Positions 16,397 to 20,331 of a stretch of DNA of 64,000 nucleotides are shown in pieces. The notes below the pieces were generated by a model that worked only from the letters and a program-made list of their open reading frames with translations, was not told the DNA's origin and ran no database searches. The stretch is taken from NCBI GenBank assembly GCA_021850325.1, contig JAJZMF010000010.1:1-64000 (forward strand). Direction: 5' to 3'. The translations under genes were made by a program, and so were the position numbers. Position 1 is the first letter of the stretch. The number at the start of each line of letters is the position of its first letter. Source of the stretch: Actinomycetes bacterium (GTDB lineage Bacteria > Actinomycetota > Acidimicrobiia > Acidimicrobiales > Palsa-688).

Positions 16397-17662
16397 TCAG
16401 TCCCCGGCGGGCGGACGGGCGTCTGCCTCGGGCAGCGGCTGGCCGAAGATCAGCGAGGCGTTGTGACCCCCGAAACCGAGGCTGTTGGTCATGGCGTAAC
16501 GGATATCGGCTTCGCGCGCCACGTTGGGCACGTAGTCGAGGTCGCATGCCGGGTCGGGGGTGTCCAGGTTCATGGTCGGGGGAGCCGTGCCCGTTTGTAC
16601 CGCCAGGATGGCGAACACCGACTCCAGGGCACCGGCAGCACCCAGGGTGTGGCCCGTCATGGACTTGGTGGACGAGACGAGCGGGACCTCGTCCCCGAAC
16701 ACCCGCTTGAGGGCAACGGTCTCCACCCGGTCGTTGGGCGGGGTGGACGTCCCGTGGGCGTTGACGTAGCCGATGTCGCCCGGGAGGATGCCGGCATCCG
16801 CCAGGGCGGCCTCCATGGCCCGCACGGCCCCGTCGCCGGTCGGGTGGGGCTGGGTTATGTGGTACGCGTCAGCCGTCGCCCCGTACCCGACCAGCTCCGC
16901 CAGCACGGGGGCGCCCCGCCGCAGAGCGAACTCCCGCTCCTCGAGCACCAGGGTGGCAGCGGCCTCCCCCAGGACGAAGCCGTCACGGTCCAGGTCGAAT
17001 GGCCGGGACGCCCTCTCGGGCTCGTCGTTGCGGGTGGACAACGCCTTCATGGCTGCGAAGCCCGCGATCCCGACCGGCGTGACGGCTGCCTCGGCCCCGC
17101 CGCAGACCATGGCGTCCGCCCGGCCGAGACGGATGGCGTCGAAAGCCGTGCCCACGGCGTGCGCAGAGGCGGAACAGGCGGTTACCGTGCACAGGTTGTA
17201 ACCCAGGAGCTGCCACTCCATTGCGATCTCCCCGGCTGCCATGTTCGGGATCATCATGGGCACCACGTAGGGGTTGACCCATTCCGGCCCCCTGCTCACC
17301 AGGGTCCTGATCCCGTCCTCGAGGGTCTTGATCCCGCCGATGCCAGAGGCGTAGACGACGCCGATGCGCTCCGCGATCGTGGCCACATCGAGCTTGGAAG
17401 CCTCGATGGCCTCCTTGGTCGCCACCAGTGCCAGTTGGACCACGCGGTCCAGGTGCCGCGCCCGTCGGCGGCCGAAGCTGGCGTCGGGGTCGAAGCCCTC
17501 CACCTCCGCAGCGATCTTGACCGGAGAACTGGAAGCATCGAACGCGCTGATGTGCCGTACCCCGCTGCGGCCGGCGACCACGGCCTGCCAGGTCTGCTCG
17601 ACGTCCAGACCAAGCGGGGTGATCGCCCCCATCCCAGTCACGACCACGCGGCGGTTACCCAT
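16397..17662 (-). CDS. fabF: Beta-ketoacyl-ACP synthase II
   Basis: 421-residue condensing enzyme of fatty-acid elongation. The catalytic triad is Cys163 (TVTACSASAHA), His303 (VNAHGTSTPPND) and His338 (SMTGHTLGAAG). The N-terminus VVVTGMGAITPLG is typical. ATG 17662 has TAGGAT 9 nt upstream. No acpP, fabD or fabH gene is beside it, so it stands apart from a fab operon. It is convergent with glnE and divergent from the small acidic gene at 17785. Confidence 0.95.
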   Translation of the reverse strand: MGNRRVVVTGMGAITPLGLDVEQTWQAVVAGRSGVRHISAFDASSSPVKIAAEVEGFDPDASFGRRRARHLDRVVQLALVATKEAIEASKLDVATIAERIGVVYASGIGGIKTLEDGIRTLVSRGPEWVNPYVVPMMIPNMAAGEIAMEWQLLGYNLCTVTACSASAHAVGTAFDAIRLGRADAMVCGGAEAAVTPVGIAGFAAMKALSTRNDEPERASRPFDLDRDGFVLGEAAATLVLEEREFALRRGAPVLAELVGYGATADAYHITQPHPTGDGAVRAMEAALADAGILPGDIGYVNAHGTSTPPNDRVETVALKRVFGDEVPLVSSTKSMTGHTLGAAGALESVFAILAVQTGTAPPTMNLDTPDPACDLDYVPNVAREADIRYAMTNSLGFGGHNASLIFGQPLPEADARPPAGD

Positions 17663-17771
17663 AGTTGAGGAATCCTAGGGGGCCCAACAGTCCGTCGGGA
17701 GCTTGGCTGGTGGCCGGGCAGGCAGCCCATGTCGCAACCGCGACGGCCGCCTGGGAACTTACGTGGGTGGC

Positions 17772-17777
17772 TAGGTT
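17772..17777 (+). promoter_or_regulatory. Leaderless -10 (TAGGTT) for the 60-residue acidic protein
   Basis: TAGGTT is followed by exactly 7 nt and then ATG 17785, the classical leaderless spacing. Confidence 0.6.
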
Positions 17778-17784
17778 CGGGTAG

Positions 17785-17967
17785 ATGGCAACCACTGACC
17801 CCGAAGTGCCCGAAGCCGACGCCATCGAGCAGTCCCAGGAGGTCTCCCCGACCGACGAGGAAGACGAAGAGACGCCGCTACAGGGACCTGCCTCCATGGA
17901 AGTCCCCGAAGCCGATGCCTTGGAGCAGTCCCAGCCCGTCCCGGGCGACCAGGACGAGAGGCGCTGA
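17785..17967 (+). CDS. 60-residue acidic protein with duplicated VPEADA(I/L)EQSQ motif
   Basis: Unknown function. It is strongly acidic and Gln/Pro-rich, has no hydrophobic segment and is probably disordered. The motif VPEADAIEQSQ near residue 8 recurs as VPEADALEQSQ near residue 39, separated by an acidic linker (TDEEDEETPLQG). Expression is supported by a TAGGTT -10 with 7-nt spacing. It ends 12 nt from the convergent stop of the helicase gene. The repeat looks like a short linear binding motif present twice. The codon use and the promoter argue for a real gene rather than a chance ORF. Confidence 0.7.
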   Translation: MATTDPEVPEADAIEQSQEVSPTDEEDEETPLQGPASMEVPEADALEQSQPVPGDQDERR

Positions 17968-17979
17968 CCGCCCTGCCCC

Positions 17980-20331
17980 TCAAGCCCGCTTGATCGGGGC
18001 CATGTGCAGGCTGAACCGCTTCTCACCAAGACTGGGGAAGCGGATGGTCGCCTCCGCGTCTGCGCCCTGGCCCCGCACATCGATGACCACCCCCTCGCCG
18101 TAACGGGCGTGCACGATGGTCTCGCCCGACCGCAGGCCGAGCGTCTCGGCCCCCGTCCCCTGTACGGGGACATTGGCCCGCCCACGCCGCATGGCCGACT
18201 CCACCATCTGGTCCCGCACCTCGGCACGCGACACCCGTGAGGGGCGGAAAGCCCCGCTGGAACGCACCAGGTGGTCGGGGATCTCGGCAACGAACCGGCT
18301 GGGCGGGTTGTACTGGGCCTCGCCCCACAGGCTCCGGCACCAGGCATAGGACATGTAGAGACGCTCGCGCGCACGGGTGACCCCCACGTAACACAGACGG
18401 CGCTCCTCCTCCAGTTCCTCTGGTTCGCCAAGGGACCTGAGGTGAGGGAACACCCCTTCCTCCATACCCGCCATGAAGACGACGGGGTACTCGAGGCCCT
18501 TCGCCGTGTGAAGGGTCATGAGGGTGACACTGGAACCGTCCTCGTCCACCTCGTCGCTGTCGGCCACCAGGCTCACGTCGGTCAGGAAGTCGGCAAGAGA
18601 CTCGGACCTACGCGCTGCGCCGAGCAGTTCCTCCACGTTCTCCAAGCGGCCTTCCACCTCCAGCTTGCTCGCGCTGTCCCTCTCCAGCTCGGCCAGGTAC
18701 CCTGTGCGGTCGATCACCGCCTGCAGGAGCTCGGCGGGGCCCGCGGGTGGCACCGGAGGCCCGGCCTGTGCCGACGTCACGTCGGTGAGCACTGCAGCGG
18801 CCCGGCCGCCGGCCGCCGACAGCGGAGGGCCGAGAGGTAGGACCATGGCTTCCGCCGGCCCTGTCCCCTCCTGTCCAGCCGCAGCTCCGTCACCTTCGCT
18901 GCCCTGGTGCATGGCCCGCAGGTCGGCCATCAGCTCCAGGAAGCCGGCGATGCCGGACAGGGCCTTGCCCGGCACGCCCGCCTCCTTGGCGTGGGCCAGC
19001 GCCTCGGCGAAGGGGAGCCCCCGGGCACCGGCCCAGGCGTCCAGCTTGGCCAGGCTGGTCTCTCCCACCCCTCGGCGGGGGACATTGAGGACCCGCTTGA
19101 GCGACACCTCGTCCTCGGGGTTGGCTATGGAGTGCAGGTAGGAGAGAAGGTCCTTGACCTCCCGCCGGTCGTAGAAGCGCGCCCCACCGACCACCTTGTA
19201 GGGCACGTTCTGACGCCGCAGCTCCTCCTCTATGGCCCTGCTCTGGGCGTTGGTGCGGTAGAACACGGCGATGTCGCCCCAGCGGTAGCCGTGCCCACGG
19301 CGCAGGTTCACGATCTCACCTGCCATCCAGGCGCCCTCGTCCTCCTCGTCCTCGGCCACGTAGCGCACCAATTGTTCGCCGCCGCCCTGTGCCGTCCACA
19401 GGTTCTTCGGCTTACGCCCTGCGTTGTTGGCGATGACGGCGTTGGCGGCGTCCAAGATCGTCTGCGTCGAGCGGTAGTTCTGGTCGAGCACGACAACCGT
19501 GGCGTCGGGGAATGCCCGTTCGAACTCGAGGATGTTGCGCACGTCGGCCCCCCGCCACCGGTAGATCGACTGGTCCGAGTCACCTACCACGGTCACCTGG
19601 TGGTGGCCACCGGCCAGGGCGAGCACCAGTTCGTTCTGCGCCCGGTTCGTGTCCTGGTACTCGTCCACGAGCAGGTGGGCGAAGCGCTCCCGGTAACGGT
19701 CCAGCACGTCGGGGTGCTTGCGGAAGAGCTGCACCGTGAGCATGAGCAGGTCGTCGAAGTCCATGGCGTTGGCAGCCAGCAACCGCCGTTGGTACTCCTG
19801 GTAGACCTCGGCGATCTTGCGCTCGAAGATCGAACTGCGCCGGGCGTGCTCGGCGTAGGCCACCGCGTCCATGAGCTCGTTCTTGGCCCCGGAGATGGCG
19901 GCATGGACCGCCCGGGGGGGGAACTTCTTGAGGTCCAGGCCGAGCTCGCGTACCACATAGCCCGTGAGGCGCACGGCGTCGGCCTGGTCGTAGATCGTGA
20001 AGGACGGCTGGTAACCGAGCACGGCAGCCTCACGACGGAGGATCCGCACGCAGGCTGCGTGGAACGTGGAAACCCACATGCGCTCCGCTACCCGGCCGAC
20101 CAGGCCCTCGACCCTCTGGCGCATCTCGTCTGCCGCCTTGTTGGTGAAGGTGATGGCCATGATCTCCATGGGAGAGAGGCCCTGCTCCCGCACCAGCCAG
20201 GCGATCCGGTGGGTGAGCACGCGGGTCTTGCCCGAGCCGGCTCCTGCCACCACCAGCAGGGGGCCCGACGGGTGGGTGACAGCCACGAGCTGGGAGGGGT
20301 TGAGCCCCTCCAGGAGCTCCCCGACGCTCAG
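17980..20331 (-). CDS. pcrA: UvrD/PcrA-type ATP-dependent DNA helicase
   Basis: Superfamily 1A 3'-5' helicase for DNA repair and replication restart; 783 residues if started at CTG 20331. Motifs: Walker A VVAGAGSGKT, Ia ITFTNKAADEM, II DEYQDTN, III VVGDSDQSIYRWRGAD, IV NYRSTQTILDAAN, V TLHTAKGLE(Y), VI CYVGVTRARERL. A C-terminal region with FSLHMAPIKRA ends the protein. The conserved Q motif (LLEGLNPSQ) lies upstream of the first canonical start, GTG 20286. No ATG, GTG or TTG occurs in that frame nearby, so CTG 20331, which overlaps the guaB3 stop as CTGA, is the likely start. The middle insertion (about residues 500-560) is low-complexity Ala/Gly/Pro. Confidence 0.93.
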   Translation of the reverse strand: MSVGELLEGLNPSQLVAVTHPSGPLLVVAGAGSGKTRVLTHRIAWLVREQGLSPMEIMAITFTNKAADEMRQRVEGLVGRVAERMWVSTFHAACVRILRREAAVLGYQPSFTIYDQADAVRLTGYVVRELGLDLKKFPPRAVHAAISGAKNELMDAVAYAEHARRSSIFERKIAEVYQEYQRRLLAANAMDFDDLLMLTVQLFRKHPDVLDRYRERFAHLLVDEYQDTNRAQNELVLALAGGHHQVTVVGDSDQSIYRWRGADVRNILEFERAFPDATVVVLDQNYRSTQTILDAANAVIANNAGRKPKNLWTAQGGGEQLVRYVAEDEEDEGAWMAGEIVNLRRGHGYRWGDIAVFYRTNAQSRAIEEELRRQNVPYKVVGGARFYDRREVKDLLSYLHSIANPEDEVSLKRVLNVPRRGVGETSLAKLDAWAGARGLPFAEALAHAKEAGVPGKALSGIAGFLELMADLRAMHQGSEGDGAAAGQEGTGPAEAMVLPLGPPLSAAGGRAAAVLTDVTSAQAGPPVPPAGPAELLQAVIDRTGYLAELERDSASKLEVEGRLENVEELLGAARRSESLADFLTDVSLVADSDEVDEDGSSVTLMTLHTAKGLEYPVVFMAGMEEGVFPHLRSLGEPEELEEERRLCYVGVTRARERLYMSYAWCRSLWGEAQYNPPSRFVAEIPDHLVRSSGAFRPSRVSRAEVRDQMVESAMRRGRANVPVQGTGAETLGLRSGETIVHARYGEGVVIDVRGQGADAEATIRFPSLGEKRFSLHMAPIKRA

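Follow-up and report, generated by a model that had tools for sequence, protein, structure and literature searches.

A conserved small acidic protein with a duplicated motif in actinobacteria and its possible link to fatty-acid synthesis

A small gene family near fatty-acid-synthesis genes

Positions 17785 to 17967 of the window, by which we mean the entire 64,000-nt stretch of DNA that we analyzed, are a real gene. It encodes an acidic protein of 60 amino acids that contains the same motif twice and has relatives across much of its phylum. Because these genes are often beside genes for fatty-acid synthesis, a role there is worth testing. From the conservation of the protein, its architecture, the selection on it, and its recurring neighborhood, we infer that it may be a bivalent, disordered motif protein, made from a probably leaderless gene, that modulates fatty-acid synthesis: its motifs would together grip a dimeric partner from that pathway or its control. 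We give this reading a probability of roughly 0.37. We came to the connection with fatty-acid synthesis after the fact and had not predicted it; the neighborhood yields a direct hypothesis that is cheap to test.

Small, disordered proteins with short motifs are a known kind. What appears to be new is this family, how widely it is distributed, and its pairing with fasR: we found no papers on the small gene in the open-licence PMC literature, including by its motif peptides, and no paper there for the guessed locus tag Rv3202A.

The gene and its repeat

The gene is on the forward strand, from an ATG at 17785-17787 to a TGA at 17965-17967, and its translation is MATTDPEVPEADAIEQSQEVSPTDEEDEETPLQGPASMEVPEADALEQSQPVPGDQDERR. 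It is alone on this strand, between a divergent fabF and a convergent pcrA. The fabF gene (16397-17662, reverse strand) encodes beta-ketoacyl-ACP synthase II and scores 587.3 bits against TIGR03150 (cut-off, 493.75). The pcrA/uvrD-type helicase gene (17980-20286, reverse strand) scores 894.7 bits against TIGR01073, which is just below the cut-off of 911.2; its stop codon and that of the small gene are 12 nt apart.

The two copies of the motif are VPEADAIEQSQ (residues 8-18; 17806-17838) and VPEADALEQSQ (residues 40-50; 17902-17934), which are identical at 10 of 11 residues. At the DNA level, the repeat spans 36 nt, of which 32 are identical. In 5,000 shuffled proteins, the best internal match between 11-mers was 8 of 11 or less, so the repeat is beyond chance. 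The copies are joined by an acidic, variable linker (residues 19-39; 17839-17901). After the second copy comes an acidic tail, PVPGDQDERR (17935-17964); the family form of this tail is an acidic run and then YR or RR at the extreme C terminus. A preliminary description of this DNA had reported a twice-repeated 11-residue motif with an acidic linker, as well as a TAGGTT box 7 nt before the ATG, and rereading the window bore out both.

AlphaFold, run with 17 sequences, predicts helices at residues 10-17 and 42-48, which correspond to the two motifs, and a lower-confidence coil for the linker (mean pLDDT of 74; pTM of 0.25). The predicted structure thus has no overall fold; a flexible chain carries the two short helices.

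A probable leaderless start

The TAGGTT box (17772-17777, forward strand) resembles a -10 element (TANNNT), and the spacer to the ATG is 17778-17784. Across 13 members from the Acidimicrobiia, including the window gene, TANNNT occurs 6-10 nt before the start in 11, and a Shine-Dalgarno match was found upstream of none of the 13; the window gene has the box and lacks the match. The background is low: within the window, just 0.38% of positions have TANNNT at this distance, as do 13 of 1,163 ATG triplets. Given these frequencies, a leaderless start is well supported by the sequence, and the gene is probably leaderless, as the preliminary description had proposed. We found no match to promoter or terminator consensus sequences within 17600-18050.

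According to excerpts of PMC4633059, nearly one-quarter of mycobacterial transcripts are leaderless. The leaderless small proteins in those excerpts are similar to the window gene: they are encoded by small ORFs with a -10-like box before the ATG and no Shine-Dalgarno sequence. Compared to what the excerpts describe, the PEADALEQ family differs in having a defined motif and a phylum-wide distribution, and about half of its curated members (42 of 83) instead show a Shine-Dalgarno-like match.

fabF also looks leaderless: TAGGAT (complement of 17672-17677) is 9 nt before its ATG, in the region 17660-17700, and lies within a block that is nearly invariant across six relatives.

Conservation and spread of the family

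In nine pairs of close relatives, dN/dS was 0.16 to 0.35, which indicates purifying selection on the protein. The view of the preliminary description that this is a distinct small protein is supported. With the window protein as the query, 14 of 61 genomes (counting its own) had matches at E < 1e-4, and same-genus relatives were found at E = 1e-14 from the single sequence. The protein matches profile A2 at E = 8.3e-20, but it is itself a row of that profile. When we scanned 84,980 species genomes with an alignment of 17 relatives, we obtained 64 loci, including representatives of Streptomyces, Mycobacterium, Nocardia, Arthrobacter, Micromonospora, Thermobifida, Nocardiopsis, and Leucobacter. 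Loci L022 to L085 were found by motif pattern, so motif conservation is biased there. The preliminary description had named a lack of homologues with the conserved motif as grounds for rejecting it; such homologues exist. Two matches were in metagenome-assembled genomes labeled as Thermoanaerobacterales and Acidobacteria, and these genomes may be mislabeled or the contigs in question foreign.

Profile searches identified the family in 16 of 32 genomes of the window's family, at least 25 of 296 genomes of its class, at least 65 of 396 genomes of the phylum, and no fewer than 112 of the 197 genomes sampled from the class that contains Streptomyces; the last three are lower bounds because only some of the first-look candidates were scored in these large searches. 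The family was also found in 46 of 59 genomes of Mycobacterium. (This genus was assigned from genome G428, whose locus matches a region of Mycobacterium sp. E796 at 100%; similarly, genome G364 was assigned to Streptomyces because its small, FasR-like, and hydrolase genes match those of a Streptomyces locus, with up to 93% identity.) A gene that is present in 60 of 61 sampled genomes of Streptomyces, and across much of the phylum, lacks a Pfam or NCBIfam model among the 11 members that we scanned: the window protein had no matches at E ≤ 10, and 10 diverse members gave just sub-threshold noise. A sequence search of the PDB also gave just noise. Using tblastn, we found no match to a Streptomyces member in plasmids or to the window protein in phages.

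The motif consensus is [ED][VA]P-E-A-D-[AV]-[LIV]-E-Q, in which D and Q hardly vary, in part by construction, since a pattern was used to find or count the loci. The family can be defined by at least one [EDP]xDxx[ED]Q near the C terminus of a small acidic protein; the window protein has two. We curated 83 members, with start codons chosen by hand; some of these come from records that overlap because two collections contain the same genome. By a loose pattern, 59 of them have two copies of the motif, 20 have three, and 4 have one, so the range of copy numbers that the preliminary description had suggested looking for does occur. Three-motif members include proteins from Arthrobacter, Micromonospora, and others (L033, L055, L063, L072, L076, L094, and L099). 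In a group of mycobacterial paralogues (seven loci), which are not near fasR, the second motif is changed and ends with ADWQEQ or similar.

The curated members (5,872 residues) are 32% aspartate plus glutamate and 0.26% lysine, with no cysteine, and 69 of the 83 have no lysine at all. If the last six residues are left out, the ratio of lysine to arginine is 14:249 in the members versus 1563:6187 in 168 neighboring ORFs (P = 2e-11, Fisher's test), although this control is rough because those ORFs are simply open frames that carry no annotation and have relatives at other loci. The C terminus is acidic and ends with YR in 37 of 58 members of a profile-found set from the Actinomycetes. This set covers 58 of 60 places, as no family-like protein was read at the other two, and 9 of the 58 have no motif by the pattern that we used.

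Pairing with fasR

In loci from Streptomyces, Thermobifida, Bailinhaonella, Jiangellaceae, and Nocardiopsis-like bacteria, the small gene is just upstream of a TetR-family gene. The best PDB matches for this neighbor are 6o6p (E = 6e-56) and 6o6n (E = 2e-53), which excerpts of PMC7382501 identify as FasR from M. tuberculosis. In that organism, again according to these excerpts, FasR activates fas-acpS, and long acyl-CoA disrupts the binding of FasR to DNA. We describe the Streptomyces neighbor as FasR-like because its best PDB matches are FasR, but its score against the NCBIfam model for FasR (NF053731, its sole NCBIfam match) is 266.8 bits, which is under the cut-off of 330.

To quantify the pairing, we considered the 62 genomes that were among both the 112 with a small-gene match and the 105 with a FasR match, and took the best match of each in every genome. 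In 47 of these genomes, from 10 families, the small gene is directly upstream of the orthologue of fasR (Rv3208, the TetR-type activator of fas-acpS) and on the same strand, with 18 to 475 nt between the matches. This includes all 11 of the Streptomycetaceae. In 4 of the other 15 genomes, the small gene is 2 to 5 kb upstream of fasR on the same strand, and in 11, it is elsewhere. Outside the 62, small-gene matches without a FasR match were found in genomes G815, G825, and G834 and, weakly, in G550. FasR-like genes are present in 105 of 118 genomes of the class. Forty-three of the 105 have no detected small gene, and at least one of these is a missed copy: when we inspected seven FasR loci at which no small gene had been detected immediately beside fasR, one hid a missed copy (G805).

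The window's lineage is different. We found no clear FasR in the window's genome, where the best TetR match is at E = 7e-11 over 75 residues, and the small gene is flanked by fabF and pcrA instead of being paired with fasR. Within the window's family, a FasR match at E ≤ 1e-40 occurs in 1 of 32 genomes, whose assembly is 7% contaminated. Similarly, in G815, G825, and G834, the small gene is beside moeZ, and there is no FasR match at E ≤ 1e-45. Because the window's genome and family lack a clear FasR, and these three genomes keep the gene without one, FasR cannot be the sole partner.

At loci L211, L213, and L232, the small gene is still divergent from moeZ, and FasR was not found in those genomes. 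One member of the window's family, genome G022, has a second copy linked to fasR (loci L156 and L197), which we at first took as a sign that the pair predates the classes. We dropped this reading because G022 is the 7%-contaminated genome and the sole one of the 32 with FasR; the contig is probably foreign to G022.

Other neighbors

At the loci of nine relatives, as in the window, the small gene and fabF are adjacent and divergently oriented. We looked for a shared fabF operator and found none: an alignment of six intergenic regions has no conserved box that is common to the fabF and small-gene promoters. In mycobacteria, two paralogues, from two genomes, are directly upstream of fabH. The FabH in question scores above the cut-off for its family, and its closest solved entries are 1m1m and 1hzp, which are also FabH. 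Other mycobacterial paralogues adjoin a gene from the mycolic-acid cyclopropane synthase family. Many members have unrelated neighbors, such as fructose-bisphosphate aldolase, formaldehyde dehydrogenase, phosphoribosyltransferase, menD, or glycosyltransferases, with several of these names read from the sequence and not from a database match. The links to fasR, fabF, and fabH are absent from the preliminary description.

Condensing enzymes are homodimers. Because genes for them adjoin the small gene in two separate lineages, these enzymes might be what the contexts have in common, which we view as a lead.

Possible roles of the protein

In the reading that we prefer, each motif would fold as a short amphipathic helix on meeting its partner, and the two copies would each grip one subunit of a homodimer. 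The partner would belong to fatty-acid synthesis or its control: it might be FasR, or a condensing enzyme, for instance FabF or FabH. Many Actinomycetes would produce the small protein from the fasR locus, and the window's lineage would do so from a locus linked to fabF. The preliminary description had suggested that the two copies of the motif bridge or tether two copies of a partner. This is plausible, as two predicted helices and a flexible linker fit bivalent binding, and the partners that we name are candidates. A more specific idea, which we consider quite improbable, is that the two PEADALEQ helices bind dimeric condensing enzymes, as well as FasR in those genomes that have it, and that they may do so as mimics of the acidic helix by which acyl carrier protein is recognized. 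If this held, actinobacteria would have an overlooked and widespread layer of control, in which one lysine-poor protein would sense the fatty-acid machinery or restrain it. The recognition helix of acyl carrier protein is short and acidic, and the motif gene adjoins genes for condensing enzymes; but the phosphopantetheine site of acyl carrier protein is DSL, which is absent from the motif.

The pairing across 10 families could instead mean that the protein is primarily a partner of FasR, with one motif helix for each FasR subunit, and that it alters DNA binding as a co-regulator or as an acidic mimic of DNA. Its strong acidity (a net charge of -0.27 per residue) is consistent with this, and two motifs would suit a dimer. 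However, the gene persists without FasR, both in the window's family and in the three genomes where it is beside moeZ, and FasR often occurs without a detected small gene, although at least one such case is a missed copy. We consider a primary role with FasR to be unlikely. Retention of the gene near moeZ where FasR is missing, the great diversity of contexts outside the fasR pair, and the lack of an operator in common with fabF might rather suggest that the protein acts elsewhere, for instance as a stress hydrophilin or with RNA polymerase or another housekeeping complex. Its fasR, fabF, and fabH neighbors would then reflect old gene order and chance. This is a serious alternative, if a somewhat unlikely one: it would need to account for three different fatty-acid-synthesis neighbors in separate lineages and for a fasR pair that spans so many families.

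We considered two further explanations. The protein might be an adaptor linked to proteolysis, or be Pup-like, with lysine avoided so as to escape pupylation and with the conserved C-terminal DDYR as a handle. Pup is also an acidic, disordered, actinobacterial protein of about 60 residues, and the scarcity of lysine relative to the neighboring ORFs and the conservation of the extreme C terminus fit this explanation. But Pup ends with GGE or GGQ, while the window protein ends with DERR and the family mostly with YR or RR; the window protein also differs from Pup in its two repeated motifs and its near lack of lysine. Furthermore, no proteasome genes were recognized among the neighbors, and the scarcity of lysine may follow from an acidic composition in GC-rich genomes. 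We therefore view a role in proteolysis as very unlikely, and the earlier suggestion of a degradation tag is unsupported. Finally, as the short ORF precedes fasR in many genomes, it might be a regulatory leader, whose translation, and not its product, controls the next gene. This is highly improbable given the purifying selection on the protein, and the motif is conserved even where no same-strand gene is directly downstream, as in the window.
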